This document shows, piece by piece, positions 9,309 to 51,545 of a stretch of DNA of 64,000 bases (the first letter of the stretch is position 1; every line of letters begins with the position of its first letter). Under the pieces are notes generated by a model. The model saw nothing but the letters and a program-made list of their open reading frames with translations, was not told where the DNA came from and searched no databases. This DNA comes from Collinsella sp. TF06-26 (GTDB lineage Bacteria; Actinomycetota; Coriobacteriia; Coriobacteriales; Coriobacteriaceae). The stretch spans positions 62,001 through 126,000 of the forward strand of contig NZ_NKXR01000002.1 of assembly GCF_002232035.1 (NCBI RefSeq), given 5' to 3'. The position numbers were made by a program, and so were the translations under genes.

Positions 9309-9911
9309 ATGGGTATCTTTAGGAACGATGACCAAAAATCGAGCCAGTTTGGATTTGACGAGAAAAGTATGGCGGGCAAAGCCGTCAAGGCCGTGCGCTG
9401 GATCTACGCCATCACGGGCGTCGTGGCGCTCATTGCTGGCATCGCGCTGCTTTTTGCACCCGCCAAGTCCCTCGTCTTTTTGACGACCGTCCTTGGTTTT
9501 TACTTTGTAATCACCGCTGCCATCAGGCTGTTCACTGCCATTTTTGAGCCGCTGCTGCCCACTGGCTGGCGCGTGACGAGCATCATCTCCAACCTACTCA
9601 TTATCCTGGGCGGCGTCATAATCCTGCGCAACCAGGCCTTCTCGACCGCGACACTCACCACGATGGTGGTTGTCGTGGCCGGCTTTGGCTGGATTGTCGA
9701 AGGTGTCATGTCCATTCTGGAGTCCGAGCTTTCGTCCAACCGCGCCCTTGCCATCCTGAGCGGTGCACTCTCCATCATCGCCGGCATGTTCGTGTTTATC
9801 TATCCGCTGTGGTCGGCCAAGATGCTTGTCATCTTTAGTGGCGCCGCGCTGCTGGTGTTTGGCGTAACGCTCATTGTTCGCGCCATTCAATTTGGCAAAC
9901 TGGTGCACTAG
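9309..9911 (+). CDS. HdeD/DUF308-like membrane protein
   Basis: A 200-residue protein with about six hydrophobic helices, arranged as three hairpin pairs, after a polar N-terminus of some 28 residues. Repeated glycine-rich helices such as LIAGIALLF, IILGGVIIL and IIAGMFVFI are typical of the HdeD family. In enterobacteria HdeD relates to acid resistance; here the role is unknown. AAAGGAG lies just before the start. The next gene begins at the base after its stop codon, so translation is probably coupled. Confidence 0.75.
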   Translation: MGIFRNDDQKSSQFGFDEKSMAGKAVKAVRWIYAITGVVALIAGIALLFAPAKSLVFLTTVLGFYFVITAAIRLFTAIFEPLLPTGWRVTSIISNLLIILGGVIILRNQAFSTATLTTMVVVVAGFGWIVEGVMSILESELSSNRALAILSGALSIIAGMFVFIYPLWSAKMLVIFSGAALLVFGVTLIVRAIQFGKLVH

Positions 9912-45595: not shown

Positions 45596-45673
45596 CACCA
45601 CCCGTGGGGATTGGCTAAACTTGCTGAGTTTGTCATCCCCGCGGCGCCCCGGCGCCACCATAAGGCAGGTACC

Positions 45674-46069
45674 ATGCAAAAGCTCCTTGCGCAGATCATG
45701 AAGTTTGGCGTCGTCGGCGTCATTGCCACGGTCATCGACTTTGGCATTATGAATCTGCTCCACTACGGTCTGGACCTCAACATCCTAATCGCCAACACCA
45801 GCGGCTTTATCATCTCACTCATCTTTAACTACCTCGCCAGCATGAAGTACGTGTTTGCGCACAAGGAGGGCATGAGCCGCCGCCGCGAGTTCATTATCTT
45901 TGTCGTGCTGTCTGTGATCGGTTTGGGACTCAACGACGGCATCGTGCTGGCGCTCAACGCCGGCCTGGGGCTCGAGGCCAATATCGCCAAGATTTGCGCC
46001 ACCGCGCTGGTCATGGTCTACAACTTTGTGACCCGAAAGATCTTCCTGGAGGGCGAGGAGACCAAGTAG
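45674..46069 (+). CDS. GtrA family membrane protein, copy A
   Basis: A 131-residue protein with four hydrophobic helices: FGVVGVIATVIDFGIMN, then ILIANTSGFIISLIFNYLAS, FVVLSVIGLGLNDGIVL and the last with NFVTRKIF. This is the GtrA/DPMS-like fold, thought to flip or support lipid-linked sugars. It shares strong local identity with the next gene (NY-SMKYVF-H-EGMSR-REF and LSVIGLGLND), so the two are duplicates. GCAGGT lies upstream of the chosen start. Confidence 0.85.
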   Translation: MQKLLAQIMKFGVVGVIATVIDFGIMNLLHYGLDLNILIANTSGFIISLIFNYLASMKYVFAHKEGMSRRREFIIFVVLSVIGLGLNDGIVLALNAGLGLEANIAKICATALVMVYNFVTRKIFLEGEETK

Positions 46070-46090
46070 CTCGGCCTCCTCGTTGCACTA

Positions 46091-46138
46091 CGGGGCCCAC
46101 GGACGACGTGCGTCGAGCGCTGCGTTGTTCGTGGGCCT
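46091..46138 (+). terminator. Hairpin between the GtrA genes
   Basis: GGCCCACG (46094-46101) pairs with CGTGGGCC (46130-46137) and is followed by TTGTTC. The T-run is short, so it may be a partial terminator. Confidence 0.4.
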
Positions 46139-46289
46139 TGTTCGCTTACGGAAGGATTTGCAACGTTTGCGGATTGTCTCTTGCAAATTTGACGAGTTCG
46201 TATAGTTCTTGCCAAAGACCTTACGTTTCCCATGCAAAAGCTCTAAAGTAACTTTTTGCTCGATTCATCAACGCATTGGATGTGATTAC

Positions 46290-46697
46290 GTGCGCAAGGC
46301 ACTGGCACAACCTCATACCAAGCAGTTCCTCAAGTTCGCTGTCGTGGGTCTTATCTCCTTTGGCATCGACTGGGGCATGCTCATTGCGCTCGTCGAGCTG
46401 TTCCACCTCGACTTTTTGATGAGTACCACGCTCTCGTTTATCACGTCCGTCGTGGTCAACTACTGGCTCAGCATGAAGTACGTGTTCGACCACCGCGAGG
46501 GCATGAGCCGCAAGCGCGAGTTCACGATCTTCACCATCCTGTCGGTGATCGGCTTGGGCCTCAACGACCTGTACATGTTTGTGGGCGTCACATTTTTGAG
46601 CATCGGATACCAGGCCATGAAGGCAATCGCAACGTTCCTGGTCACCTGGTACAACTACTTTAGCCGTCGCTTCTTCCTCGAAGGCGCTCGCTCGTAG
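46290..46697 (+). CDS. GtrA family membrane protein, copy B
   Basis: A 135-residue GtrA-like protein with four predicted helices; it shares NYWLSMKYVFDHREGMSRKREF and the following LSVIGLGLND with copy A. The frame is open from 46209, but the GTG at 46290 gives the same N-terminus as copy A and a similar length. GGATGTG upstream is a moderate ribosome site. Having two different GtrA copies suggests a heteromeric complex or two lipid-sugar pathways. A terminator follows at 46725. Confidence 0.8.
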   Translation: MRKALAQPHTKQFLKFAVVGLISFGIDWGMLIALVELFHLDFLMSTTLSFITSVVVNYWLSMKYVFDHREGMSRKREFTIFTILSVIGLGLNDLYMFVGVTFLSIGYQAMKAIATFLVTWYNYFSRRFFLEGARS

Positions 46698-46857: not shown

Positions 46858-47766
46858 CTAGCCCGTTACGTAATACCAGACCACGTTGTCGCCGTTGGAG
46901 AGAACGTAGTTGCTGCACGCCGTCATGGGCGTTGTGCCGTTGACGGAGTACATCCAGCCGCTCGTGCCGCCGTACTGTTTCTCGGCCAAACCACCAATCG
47001 CGGAGACATACGTGCCGTACGACGAGCCATGTGCGTTGACAGAAAGGCCCAGCGCGCACAGGGCATCGTAGACGGTAGCGCCTTCGTTAAAGGTAAAGGT
47101 GCCACCGGAGGACACAGGATTGCCCACAGCACTCGATGTGACCGAAACCGTCACTGTTACGTAGCCGGACTCCTGCGAGCCGCTCTGGCCGCCCGAGGAG
47201 GCGTTTCCACCATTAGAGCTGGAGGCTCCATCAGACGACTGGCCGCCGCCCGAAGAAGCACCGCCAGACACATTGGAAGTATCGCCGGCTCCCGTATTCT
47301 GGGCAGCGGATTTATCTCCAGACTTCTTGCCGTCCTGACCATCGGACTTCTTGCTATCCGAGTTCTTGTCCGATTCCTTGTTTGAAGACTCGGAATCGTC
47401 CTTGGACTTGGACTCATCAGAATGCTTGGACTCGTCTTTTGCGTCATTCGATGACTTGGAATCCTTGGAACTGGCCTCGCCCGAAGTCGTAGTCGAGCCA
47501 GACGCCTTGGTGTCCTTGGTGACGACGCTCTCCCCCGTCACGGTCTGAATGATCCAGTCGATGGACCAGGCGCCGCTCTCGGAAGGATGGACGAAGCCCA
47601 GCGAGACGACAATCAGAATGGTGCACGCGGCAGTCAGAACGCCAAGGAGCGCTTTACGCCGTGGGGCGGACGCCGCCGAAGCGGCGCCCTGTTGCTTTGC
47701 ATCGTCGAACTGAATGAACGAGGAATCTGGTTGCTTGGGGTCAGCGTCCTTGGATTTATTGGACAC
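46858..47766 (-). CDS. Membrane-anchored DUF4430 protein
   Basis: About 302 residues. A short cytoplasmic head is followed by one hydrophobic helix (ALLGVLTAACTILIVVSLGF, about residues 39-58). A long low-complexity linker rich in Ser, Asp, Lys and Gly (residues 85-195) would cross the cell wall. The C-terminal 100 residues form one DUF4430 domain (VTVTVSVTSS...GTFTFNEGATVYDALCALG...NGDNVVWYYVTG). DUF4430 resembles the beta domain of vertebrate intrinsic factor and transcobalamin, so corrinoid binding is the leading idea. The GTG at 47766 follows AGGTGAGG; the stop of the large upstream gene is nine bases away, so the pair is coupled and under the riboswitch. Confidence 0.8.
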   Translation of the reverse strand: MSNKSKDADPKQPDSSFIQFDDAKQQGAASAASAPRRKALLGVLTAACTILIVVSLGFVHPSESGAWSIDWIIQTVTGESVVTKDTKASGSTTTSGEASSKDSKSSNDAKDESKHSDESKSKDDSESSNKESDKNSDSKKSDGQDGKKSGDKSAAQNTGAGDTSNVSGGASSGGGQSSDGASSSNGGNASSGGQSGSQESGYVTVTVSVTSSAVGNPVSSGGTFTFNEGATVYDALCALGLSVNAHGSSYGTYVSAIGGLAEKQYGGTSGWMYSVNGTTPMTACSNYVLSNGDNVVWYYVTG

Positions 47767-47775
47767 AGCCCTCAC

Positions 47776-50700
47776 CTACCGACGTTTGGTGAACACGAAC
47801 ACGCCGACGATGGCGAGACCGATGACGCCGGCGGCAACGCCAACAATGGCGAGCGGGTTGGTGCCAGTCTCCTGTTCGGAAGCACTAGAGGACTTCTTAG
47901 CAGTGGTCGTGGAAGCAGCACCCGTATCGGACTTGGAATCGGACTTCTTGTCGGACTTGCTGTCCTTCTTGTCAGACTTCTTGTCAGACTTCTTCTCGTC
48001 CTTCTTATCGGACTTATCGGTGTCCTTCTTGTCGGACTTGTTGTCCTTGGTCTCGGTCTTGGTCGACACCGTCGTCTTGGTCGTCGGCTTATGACCCGGG
48101 GCGATAGCGCCGCCGGCCTGCTGGCCCTTCGTGCCGGAGCCGGAACCCGTGCCCGTGCCAGCACCGGAACCGTTGCCAGCGCCACCGTTGCCACCATTAG
48201 TGCCAGAACCGCCATTGCCGCCAGGGTTGGTGGCATTCTTGGTCCACTTGGCATACAGCGTCAGATCGGCCGTCACCGGCATACTGAAGTCATACGCCTG
48301 CGCGCAAGTCTCATCGGTGAACCAACCGCCGAAAGTGTAGCCATCGCGCGTCGGATCGGCCGGCTTGACCAGCTTGCCATCGGCCGTAGTCTGGAAGTCG
48401 ACCTTAGAACCCTCGCCAGTCTCAAACGAGACCTTAACGCCACCACTCAGCTTGAAAAGCGTGCCGGAATCGTTGATGTAGTAGAGGTTACCCTTGGCAT
48501 CGCAGGCAATCGGCGAGTCACAGTAATTGTTGTGTCCCGCCGCGCTAAACGCACCGGTCGCCTGTGCGTCACCCATCTTGTAGCGATACACCCCACCGCC
48601 CGAGGTGTAGTTCACATAGTCGGAAGTCGCACCATAGTTGACAGTGAAATAAACGTACGTGCCATCCGCCTGGACACTCACGAGCGGTGCGCCCTTAATG
48701 CCACCGGCTGGAAGCACGGAGCCATCGGCAGACGAAACCAACGTCGTAGCAAAGTCATTATCAAGGTCGACAATCGCCAGCGCCGAACCGCCAGAAACCT
48801 CGCCACCGACAATCAGCTTATTGCCGTACAGCGTGGGCATGCAGGCACAACCCGTAAGACCAAGATCGATGACGCGTTCTTCGGAAATGCGCGAAGAGGC
48901 CCTTGCGTTTGCGTCCGACAGTGCCAGCACGTGGAGCTTGCCGTCACGCGAGATCACATAGGCATGCTTGCCGTCTTTGGACAGTACACAGCTGGAGTTG
49001 ACGATGGCACCAACCGAAACGCTGCCGAGCACATCACCCGTCGACTTGCTCAGCATCTCAACGGTACCTGCACTCGTCGGAACCAGAATATAGCCGTCGC
49101 CCACTGTAGCGCTCGTCCAGTAGTAGCCCTCATCAGCATTAACATGCTGCCAAGAAACAGCGCCGGTCAGTATATTAATACGCGTCAGATGACCGTTATT
49201 GTACGTACTCGTTCCATAGTCGACATCAACGGTGCCAACGTAGAGATAGTTGCCATCGACCGTCAACTGGGAATTTGACTGGGCAGATTTGCTCACAGAG
49301 TCAGTGACCCAAACCGTCGTCAGCGTATCGGCCGTCAGAGCCTGGACCGCACCGCCGTCGAGCGGGACGATGACCAAGCCTTTCGTATAAATCGGACGCG
49401 TGGTGTAGCCAATCGCAGTCTGAAGGTTCGACTCGGCAAGCACCTTGCCCGACTCGGCGTCGATCTTAAGCAAACGCTTGTTCACGGCAAGGTAAACGTT
49501 GCCGTTCACGACAATAGGCTCGCTCGCATTGGGATACGTGGCACCCGAGTAGGCCCTCCAATCGAACGTCCAAGGGCTTGCCAGCGTGCCCGTAGGCGTG
49601 GACACGTTCTTGACCACCGCATTGGAATTGCCACTCCAGTCGGCTTTCCAATCGGTCGGGCGCGAAGCGCTCGGATCGGCTACGACTTCATCGGGATTAG
49701 GAACGGTGTCGCCAGGGGCGTAAGCCCAGACGATTTTGTCGCCCGACTTGAGCACGTAATCGCTATCGAGCTGAGGCCCGGGAACGCCATTAACAAAGAA
49801 CGACCATGCACCCGACAGCTCGGTGCCATCAAGCGGGGAGACAAGACTATGAACACCCCAATAACCAAATTGGTCGTACATCTTGGACTCAATGCCAATG
49901 GCATCGAAGTAGGCAGCGGAAGCGTCCTTGATCGTCGTGCCCTCGACAAACACCTGCGTCGAAGGATCGGTCCAGCGCTGCGCCTTCTCATCCTTCTTAC
50001 CGATGATCTCCATTGAAACGGAAACCTGGCCGGGCATGGTTCCATCAAAGCCATAGACCCAGGTAACCTTGTCCCCGGCCTTGAGTGTGTAATTGCCCGC
50101 GCCGACATTGGCCGCCTGACCGTTAACGAAGAACTGCCAGAATTTCCAAGTGTTTTCGTTAACTTTCTCGCTCGAAAGCGTCACGGTCTTGTTGAACGGT
50201 GAAGTCAGCGACTCGAGATACCAGCCGTACGTGCCTTTCCCCGTTTTGGCGCCAATGCCGGCCTTTTTAAAGGCCTGCTCGGAAAGATCAGCAGCGGTCG
50301 TGCCCTCTTCCACCAAAGCTGTCGTGGGCTGCGCCCATGTCTGCTGAGCGCCCGAGGCGTCCTGGCCGACAACGGTGCAGCTAACGGAAATCTGATTGGC
50401 GGGCGCGGGGTCACCGTACTTCGAGTAGCACCAGACGACGGAGTCGCCGTCCTTGAGCGTGTAGCCGCCGGCGCCGACCGCGGAGGCGCTGCCGTTGACG
50501 AACAGCTGCCAGTGCGCGCCGGTCGCCGGGTCGTAGGCGAGCGTGCGGCCCGCGTCGAAGGGCGACGTGATCGAGTTGAGTGCCCAGCCCCAGGAGCCGT
50601 TGGGGTCGTAGTCGGCCTTGAGGCCGGCCTGCCTGAAGAGCTGCTCGGAGAGGTCGGCCGCGGTCGAGCCCTCCTTCAGAGCGATCTGCTGCGCGGCGGC

Positions 50701-51279
50701 CCAGGTCTGCTGGGCGCCCTTGGCGTCGGTGCCGACGACGGAGCACGTGGCCGCGACCTCTTGGCTTGCGGCTTCGGTAGGCTGAGATTCAGCCTCATCG
50801 GAAGCGGCTACAACACTTTTGACGTTCTGTTCGGATGAATCCGGCGAAGCAGTAGAAGCCTCGACTGCGGCAGAATCGTCCGACGCTACGCCGTTGCTAT
50901 CTGCGGCATTCGCCGAAGCGCCATCGTTAACCGACGCATCGCTCGCGTTAGAGCCGGTTTCAGAAACGACACCGTCGGCAGCACCGTCCGCGGCACCCGT
51001 GCCCTCGCCCGGCGTCGCAGCCTGAGCCACAGCCTCGGCAATGCCCTCGGCGCCCTCGGCCCACAGCTGAGCCGGCGTGGTGCCAAAGGCCATCGCGAAG
51101 GCCAGGAATGCCACCAGGCCGCGCTTGGCTACGCCGCATGCAATCGCGCCACGGCGATGCAACGAGGCGCGCTCGCGCTCGTCCTCAAACATATCCATTT
51201 GTCCCCCATTGTCTGTACTTGGAGCGTTGCCTTGAGGCTGCCCCACGTCATCGCGCGTGTTGCGCTCGAGTTCCCCCAT
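47776..51279 (-). CDS. Giant surface protein: three DUF4430 domains, beta-propeller, InlB-type repeat, C-terminal anchor
   Basis: About 1167 residues. A signal-like hydrophobic segment (GLVAFLAFAMAFGTTPAQLWA, near residues 55-75) is followed by an acidic linker. Three DUF4430 domains lie at roughly 177-289, 297-410 and 415-525, each ending in a GDxVVW-like strand. A beta-propeller of PQQ-like blades (about 565-930; GNVYLAVNKRLLKIDAESGK, GNYLYVGTV, GYILVPTSAGTVEML) comes next. Then follow a Listeria-Bacteroides repeat (GYTFGGWFTDE...LTLYAKW), a Lys/Asp stalk, a last helix, NPLAIVGVAAGVIGLAIVGV, and the tail FTKRR. A predicted cobalamin riboswitch precedes it, so corrinoid capture is inferred. 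The start at 51279 is chosen after GGAGGGAAGGGGG; GC content jumps inside domain 1. Confidence 0.85.
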   Translation of the reverse strand: MGELERNTRDDVGQPQGNAPSTDNGGQMDMFEDERERASLHRRGAIACGVAKRGLVAFLAFAMAFGTTPAQLWAEGAEGIAEAVAQAATPGEGTGAADGAADGVVSETGSNASDASVNDGASANAADSNGVASDDSAAVEASTASPDSSEQNVKSVVAASDEAESQPTEAASQEVAATCSVVGTDAKGAQQTWAAAQQIALKEGSTAADLSEQLFRQAGLKADYDPNGSWGWALNSITSPFDAGRTLAYDPATGAHWQLFVNGSASAVGAGGYTLKDGDSVVWCYSKYGDPAPANQISVSCTVVGQDASGAQQTWAQPTTALVEEGTTAADLSEQAFKKAGIGAKTGKGTYGWYLESLTSPFNKTVTLSSEKVNENTWKFWQFFVNGQAANVGAGNYTLKAGDKVTWVYGFDGTMPGQVSVSMEIIGKKDEKAQRWTDPSTQVFVEGTTIKDASAAYFDAIGIESKMYDQFGYWGVHSLVSPLDGTELSGAWSFFVNGVPGPQLDSDYVLKSGDKIVWAYAPGDTVPNPDEVVADPSASRPTDWKADWSGNSNAVVKNVSTPTGTLASPWTFDWRAYSGATYPNASEPIVVNGNVYLAVNKRLLKIDAESGKVLAESNLQTAIGYTTRPIYTKGLVIVPLDGGAVQALTADTLTTVWVTDSVSKSAQSNSQLTVDGNYLYVGTVDVDYGTSTYNNGHLTRINILTGAVSWQHVNADEGYYWTSATVGDGYILVPTSAGTVEMLSKSTGDVLGSVSVGAIVNSSCVLSKDGKHAYVISRDGKLHVLALSDANARASSRISEERVIDLGLTGCACMPTLYGNKLIVGGEVSGGSALAIVDLDNDFATTLVSSADGSVLPAGGIKGAPLVSVQADGTYVYFTVNYGATSDYVNYTSGGGVYRYKMGDAQATGAFSAAGHNNYCDSPIACDAKGNLYYINDSGTLFKLSGGVKVSFETGEGSKVDFQTTADGKLVKPADPTRDGYTFGGWFTDETCAQAYDFSMPVTADLTLYAKWTKNATNPGGNGGSGTNGGNGGAGNGSGAGTGTGSGSGTKGQQAGGAIAPGHKPTTKTTVSTKTETKDNKSDKKDTDKSDKKDEKKSDKKSDKKDSKSDKKSDSKSDTGAASTTTAKKSSSASEQETGTNPLAIVGVAAGVIGLAIVGVFVFTKRR

Positions 51280-51334
51280 CGGGGTCCCCCTTCCCTCCAG
51301 AGCCCTATGCACACCGGCGGCATACGCCGCAGCC

Positions 51335-51545
51335 GCACGCAAGATGGGAGGCGATCCGACTTAACCTTAACGACTCGGGCGCGCCGTCCGATCTGCGACG
51401 CGAACATCCCGAGCCAAGAGGAATTACGGTTACTGGTACAGCCGGGGACTTGCACCCCGATTCTCCCAAACGCGCAGGAAAACCGCGCATTCGTGCGTCT
51501 CCGCACCACCATCTAGGCCATCGATTATTACCGTCAAAATGGTAT
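51335..51545 (-). promoter_or_regulatory. Cobalamin (B12) riboswitch
   Basis: On the minus strand the leader reads GGGAGAATC, then GGGGTGCAAGTCCCC (at 51442-51456), GGCTGTACCAGTAACCG, and about 100 bases later AAGTCGGATCGCC near 51350-51365. This order matches the conserved core of adenosylcobalamin aptamers: the GGTGCRAAUCC-type stem, GCTG, the AC-GUAA region and the final AGUC-GA-GCC box. The aptamer ends about 60 bases before the start codon of the giant DUF4430 gene, so it can mask that gene's ribosome site when B12 is plentiful. The exact 5' boundary is uncertain. Confidence 0.82.

Follow-up and report, generated by a model that had tools for sequence, protein, structure and literature searches.

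A 64,000-nucleotide stretch of the genome of Collinsella sp. TF06-26 (contig NZ_NKXR01000002.1, positions 62,001 to 126,000; hereafter the window, along which all unprefixed coordinates are numbered) contains a minus-strand operon in which a leader RNA is followed by a gene for a giant surface protein of 1167 amino acids and, directly abutting it, a gene for a second surface protein of 305 amino acids, both carrying DUF4430 domains. We consider it very likely that this operon is a B12-repressed system for corrinoid capture at the cell surface that feeds an importer of the energy-coupling factor (ECF) type with a CbrT-like S component. The genome containing the window (G000; G, C and L denote genomes, contigs and loci, respectively) is 2.26 Mb long and 99.97% complete and represents a Collinsella-type bacterium whose relatives are Collinsella, including C. 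aerofaciens; genome-wide statements refer to profile searches of this one assembly.

The operon leader as a cobalamin riboswitch

In its sequence and conserved structure, the leader is a divergent cobalamin riboswitch, with a response to the ligand predicted from this identity. The first-pass annotation of this DNA had placed a cobalamin aptamer at 51335–51545, a range that covers the aptamer as delimited here from P1 to P1 (51514–51342, minus strand, with an AdoCbl-II-like core at 51377–51467). At the gathering threshold, Rfam reported zero families within the window. With E-value reporting, a search of 801 bases yielded a match to AdoCbl-II (RF01689, cobalamin clan) at 51467–51377 on the minus strand, with 30.3 bits and E=6e-05, and the runner-up (E=2.3) left no other credible family. 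The window copy scores below the curated cut-off, and its relatives L181, L188, L197 and L237 score above it. The above-cut-off matches precede the operon in Slackia, Raoultibacter, Gordonibacter and Aphodovivens (four related leaders).

A consensus structure was built from 17 homologous leaders of relatives, in which 96.3% of cells are paired. The shared fold consists of P1 (AGAUGG/CCAUCU; 51514–51509/51347–51342 in the window), a GAGA hairpin, a variable hairpin, and P3, P4, P5 and P6. Two-sided covariation with pairing kept was found at 24 of 43 pairs, compared with 10.2 ± 2.1 in shuffles, none of which reached 24, and 6–9 in slid alignments. The leader shares with RF01689 the conserved P3–P6 core, in sequence and in paired, covarying stems, including the P5/L5 loop; its P6 arm is longer, and the conserved hairpin on its 5' side (GUGCG-GAGA-CGCAC) lies outside the Rfam match. 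The null result at the gathering threshold, taken by itself, would have sufficed to refute the cobalamin riboswitch; we retain the assignment because the permissive search, the relatives and the covariation all support it.

A model of the leader (R1) matches 36 of the 37 genus members, among them every one of the 35 that have the DUF4430 operon, and beyond its training set gives 101–115 bits in G008, G016 and G036 and 113 bits in Slackia exigua (L205). The same propeller gene is preceded in Clostridia and some other groups by the classical cobalamin riboswitch (RF00174, about 70–88 bits), which in Clostridia scores above the family cut-off. The occurrence of two riboswitch types on one gene system points to function rather than shared leader ancestry. 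Altogether, a riboswitch was found at 62 of the 80 named loci, which had been picked by a propeller motif.

The layout downstream of the aptamer suggests how control might be exerted. The L5 loop (ACCAG, 51433–51437, minus) is complementary to a CUGG at the ribosome-binding site, its proposed kissing partner, which lies within the putative expression platform CUGGAGGGAAGGGGG (51286–51300, minus) and overlaps the Shine-Dalgarno sequence some 20 bases upstream of the start codon. The L5 CCAG and the downstream CUGG are both conserved in 39 of 42 leaders, as is the CYCUGGA-purine-start pattern. This is the arrangement of translational OFF switches, from which we infer the direction of control.

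Across the genome of the window, the operon leader is the only noteworthy RF01689 match. A weak match on G000:C34 (E=1.3) was dropped, as Rfam gives a flavin mononucleotide (FMN) riboswitch there; weak model matches on G000:C34 and G017:C11 were considered as a further B12 riboswitch heading an ECF operon but are likewise FMN riboswitches in Rfam. The FMN riboswitch on G000:C34 (L150:8288-8096) precedes an ECF S component, probably of a riboflavin transporter.

Structures of the two surface proteins

The giant protein (47776–51279, minus; an open reading frame whose start codon position after the platform is conserved) begins with a signal peptide-like hydrophobic segment (residues 48–70, 51070–51138, by hydropathy). 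Three DUF4430 domains follow, with boundaries drawn from Pfam and, for the first two, alignment: domain 1 (residues 174–293, 50401–50760), domain 2 (residues 297–411, 50047–50391), which contains the best PF14478 stretch, and domain 3 (residues 417–528, 49696–50031), which adjoins a beta-propeller of the BamB/pyrroloquinoline quinone (PQQ) type (residues 579–946, 48442–49545). The propeller leads into a single Listeria-Bacteroides (Flg_new/InlB B) repeat (residues 949–1011, 48247–48435; PF09479, 62.9 bits, with matches to internalin B structures) and a low-complexity Gly/Lys/Asp/Ser linker (47875–48231). The three DUF4430 stretches reach 99.5 bits with PF14478 (cut-off 23.8), and Pfam and the structural model agree with the domain composition proposed in the first-pass annotation.

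The second protein (46858–47775, minus), whose gene abuts the stop of the first, comprises an N-terminal membrane helix, a low-complexity spacer and a C-terminal DUF4430 domain (46861–47154; PF14478 68.3 bits against the same cut-off). Both proteins had been annotated as anchored, which their sequences bear out with a difference in the means: the giant protein ends in a hydrophobic helix with a KRR tail (47791–47859, hydropathy 2.73), and the second protein is held by its N-terminal helix. A motif scan found no LPXTG before the C-terminal helix of the giant protein, which rules out sortase anchoring through this motif.

The DUF4430 domain of the second protein was modeled with a predicted local distance difference test (pLDDT) score of 93.8. 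A fold search with this model returned 19 PDB matches at E≤0.001, which are the beta domains of transcobalamin, haptocorrin and intrinsic factor plus one Ruminococcus gnavus protein; the similarity to the animal domains amounts to template modeling (TM) scores of 0.73–0.77 at 13–19% identity. Profile searches also link DUF4430 to transcobalamin-type beta domains, in agreement with the annotated resemblance, and the DUF4430 domains of the operon, as modeled, have the transcobalamin/intrinsic-factor beta-grasp fold. The isolated beta domain of human transcobalamin binds cyanocobalamin and cobinamide (PMC5599065), so a fold of the DUF4430 type can hold corrinoids without the alpha/alpha toroid.

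Domain 3 and the propeller were modeled together with high confidence (pLDDT 93.6, predicted TM score 0.91). Pfam gives Beta-prop_ACSF4 for the propeller at E=3e-08, below the family cut-off, and its nearest solved relatives, by both profile and fold, are BamB and PQQ-type propellers. In all 26 aligned relatives the propeller is acidic, with a net charge of -3 to -28; such a charge would match a cationic ligand, although it carries little weight as evidence. By analogy with intrinsic factor, where a beta domain works together with an alpha/alpha toroid, domain 3 and the propeller could conceivably clamp one corrinoid between them; we regard this as doubtful. If true, the protein would be the Gram-positive equivalent of intrinsic factor and of BtuG alike, and could compete with both for gut B12.

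Among relatives, the number of tandem DUF4430 domains (one to four) and the N-terminal stalk vary, whereas the last DUF4430 domain, the propeller and the second gene are retained, which identifies these three as the working core of the system. A toroid partner domain concealed in the long N-termini of relatives was considered and rejected, as only immunoglobulin (Ig)-like aBig_2 repeats were found in the four relatives scanned. In relative L045 (G024), the giant DUF4430 gene is broken by a single in-frame TAG (9541–9614).

Linkage to a CbrT-type ECF transporter

The operon is spread across Coriobacteriia and into Clostridia. In several families outside Collinsella, the gene order is propeller-DUF4430-EcfT-EcfA-EcfS, with EcfT at most 4.5 kb downstream at 39 of the 48 loci outside the Collinsella clade and at none of the 32 inside it. 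In G044, the riboswitch is followed by a propeller lipoprotein encoded as a separate gene and then by DUF4430, EcfT, EcfA and EcfS. Collinsella that lack the giant gene (G008, G016, G018 and G036) have the same variant riboswitch, followed by a DUF4430 lipoprotein, EcfT and an EcfA-EcfS fusion. A 1046-aa frame at L136 was rejected as a single gene, since it starts inside EcfT, out of frame, and encodes the EcfA-EcfS fusion in its downstream portion alone.

The EcfS profile (A6), which includes the copy from the genome of the window, has as its best PDB match chain A of 6FNP (E=3e-16, compared with 0.39 for RibU), which is ECF-CbrT, the solved B12 transporter of Lactobacillus delbrueckii (PMC5997447). 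The linked EcfS is thus a CbrT homolog by sequence, and its predicted substrate is cobalamin. In the genome of the window, EcfT-EcfA-EcfS lie on the separate contig C20 (EcfS, G000:C20:448-1137); at L163, EcfT (3663–2836) and EcfA (2752–1172) adjoin the S component (1143–448). Among genomes that carry the surface system, 45 of 46 also have EcfS, the single exception ending at a contig edge; among those without the system, 4 of 14 have it. This linked transporter with its CbrT-like S component lends strong, independent support to the role in corrinoid capture that the annotation had proposed for the surface-anchored two-gene operon.

G033 is the sole genus member in which riboswitch, DUF4430 operon and EcfS are missing together; it may make its own B12, because it carries CbiD. 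For the use of the vitamin, the genome of the window encodes a cobalamin-dependent methionine synthase (MetH-like protein). The B12-binding domain PF02310 is present in most genus members, so its co-occurrence with the system is weak evidence, and it was undetected in the operon-bearing members G005, G015, G031, G034 and G035.

Proposed mode of action

Under plentiful cobalamin, the ligand would bind the aptamer and L5 (CCAG) would pair with the CUGG at the ribosome-binding site, blocking translation; when cobalamin is scarce, the ribosome-binding site would be free and both proteins would be made. The giant protein would extend through the wall on its flexible stalk, exposing a DUF4430 array that, perhaps with the propeller, would bind corrinoids. 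The short membrane-bound DUF4430 protein may then hand these on to EcfT-EcfA-EcfS by way of its CbrT-like S component, and the imported corrinoid would serve the methionine synthase.

Several observations weigh against this reading. The window riboswitch scores 30.3 bits against a curated RF01689 cut-off of 36.5, and the minimum-free-energy fold of the single leader is no stabler than shuffles (z=-0.87), although single-sequence folding of this kind proved uninformative and was dropped as evidence for a riboswitch. Most Atopobiaceae loci retain the operon with no riboswitch detected; at the Rfam cut-off, no cobalamin riboswitch was found at the Olsenella/Atopobium-type loci L190, L198, L202, L207, L209, L210, L219, L221, L248 and L251. 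An alpha/alpha toroid, which completes the B12 site of transcobalamin, was absent from both proteins and from four relatives in Pfam searches, and beta domains on their own have a lower affinity than whole transcobalamin (PMC5599065). The annotation had likened the propeller to BtuG, a kinship that was not supported: no BtuG appears among the listed 60 of 76 profile matches (E≤0.1) or the best 50 fold matches, and descent from BtuG was rejected on the ranking in both searches. The co-occurrence counts come from related genomes and are not phylogenetically independent, and the ECF genes of Collinsella are unlinked to the operon, with no riboswitch seen before them. Finally, the genome of the window also encodes CbiD and a nearby FecCD/BtuF-type ABC system; because of these, the operon need not be the sole corrinoid source, and others may exist.

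Two observations stand beside these points. At the ten Olsenella/Atopobium-type loci named above, the propeller gene is retained and the DUF4430 and ECF genes are mostly present as well. CbiD and the lone FecCD/BtuF-type ABC transporter lie no more than about 6 kb apart (G000:C1:263210-269585), and no cobalamin riboswitch was detected there.

Alternative explanations

The strongest competing view, to which we give somewhat less than even weight, keeps the system as described but has only DUF4430 touching the ligand, with the propeller serving, like the Ig-like and InlB repeats, as a stalk or as a platform onto which the transporter or the wall docks. The propeller resembles BamB, a protein-protein platform in Gram-negatives; N-terminal stalks and DUF4430 numbers vary freely; and some Collinsella manage with just a DUF4430 lipoprotein and the ECF genes. 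Yet its aromatics (GYYW, YYxNDSG) hardly vary across two phyla, a degree of conservation far above what a stalk needs, and in G044 it forms a separate lipoprotein encoded immediately ahead of DUF4430 and ECF. A different question is that of the ligand, which could for the most part be cobinamide, or other corrinoids that are incomplete or are not cobalamins, destined for remodeling rather than vitamin B12. That CbiD is encoded in the genome of the window, that both cobalamin and cobinamide are taken up by CbrT (PMC5997447) and that the transcobalamin beta domain binds cobinamide (PMC5599065) would all fit, but most genus members without CbiD retain the system, so precursor salvage alone is insufficient, and we judge this explanation unlikely.

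Far less probable still is a B12-controlled adhesin, which would attach to polymers of host or microbial origin through DUF4430, the propeller and the InlB repeats, the riboswitch merely coupling adhesion to vitamin status. Its appeal lies in the InlB repeat, the low-complexity wall-spanning linkers and the variable stalks, all adhesin-typical, and in the giant FIVAR proteins that stand behind cobalamin riboswitches in G006, G021 and G029; an adhesin would not be expected to have the transcobalamin fold, nor to co-occur with a CbrT-like ECF transporter and be linked to it in a conserved way. Corrinoid capture coupled to ECF import remains our preferred interpretation of the operon.

Neighboring genes and FIVAR proteins

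On the downstream side, two tandem genes for GtrA-like membrane proteins (45611–46697, plus) converge on the operon. Upstream, an ABC1/UbiB-like gene shares the strand of the operon but precedes the leader and is thus outside the operon, which, given also the convergent downstream genes, is limited in the genome of the window to two genes.

In other genomes, giant FIVAR-domain surface proteins are encoded directly behind cobalamin riboswitches (L139:4495-9063 in G021, L145:1941-6617 in G029, and L144 in G006). Two of these riboswitch-led proteins are 55% identical over 1292 aa, and none of the set carries DUF4430 or the propeller. They constitute a second kind of surface protein under B12 control, as predicted from the riboswitch.

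Relation to known systems

The idea of B12 scavenging by DUF4430 is already known. Burroughs, Balaji, Iyer and Aravind (2007; PMC1796856) proposed that bacterial surface proteins with transcobalamin-like SLBB (DUF4430) domains are B12 scavengers, and described a propeller fusion (Clostridium) and operons with a second extracellular SLBB paralog and CbiO/CbiQ-like genes. The present system shares with theirs the secreted or anchored proteins, the propeller, Ig and FIVAR fusions and the second-paralog operons. That report, which placed the clade mostly in low-GC Gram-positives, mentions neither riboswitches nor an S component whose specificity is known. What is added here is the riboswitch, an EcfS resembling CbrT, DUF4430 domains in tandem arrays of up to four, and the spread through Coriobacteriia. 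A full-text search of the open-access literature found no paper on the operon, the riboswitch or the S component in Coriobacteriia.

Animal transcobalamin, haptocorrin and intrinsic factor share the beta-domain fold with the Collinsella proteins, but the latter are membrane anchored and combine tandem beta domains with a propeller; the whole-protein arrangement of toroid and beta domain sandwiching cobalamin is not found in them. With BtuG of Bacteroides, the common features are a surface-anchored propeller and a B12-related locus; the operon's propeller is acidic overall, and the face on which BtuG2 binds corrinoids is negatively charged (PMC6143338, PMC10404256). BtuG2, in contrast, is a seven-bladed lipoprotein on an outer-membrane TonB-dependent transporter (PMC6143338, PMC10404256), whereas the operon's propeller, whose closest relatives are of the BamB/PQQ type, has an ECF transporter as its partner in a Gram-positive and has no detected sequence kinship with BtuG. 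In L. delbrueckii, the cbrT gene, homologous to the linked EcfS (6FNP), sits in nrdJ-cbrS-cbrT-pduO, and surface capture proteins are undescribed there (PMC5997447).

A survey of human gut genomes left the identification of B12 and precursor transport as an open problem in many genomes and found that C. aerofaciens needs B12 despite having synthesis genes (PMC6593275). Extracellular B12 capture by Gram-positive gut bacteria is poorly known, and the operon names candidate genes in Collinsella, Eggerthella, Slackia and some Clostridia, turning the 2007 prediction for DUF4430 into a specific, directly testable system. It would mean that a bacterial relative of intrinsic factor competes for B12 with the BtuG of Bacteroides.

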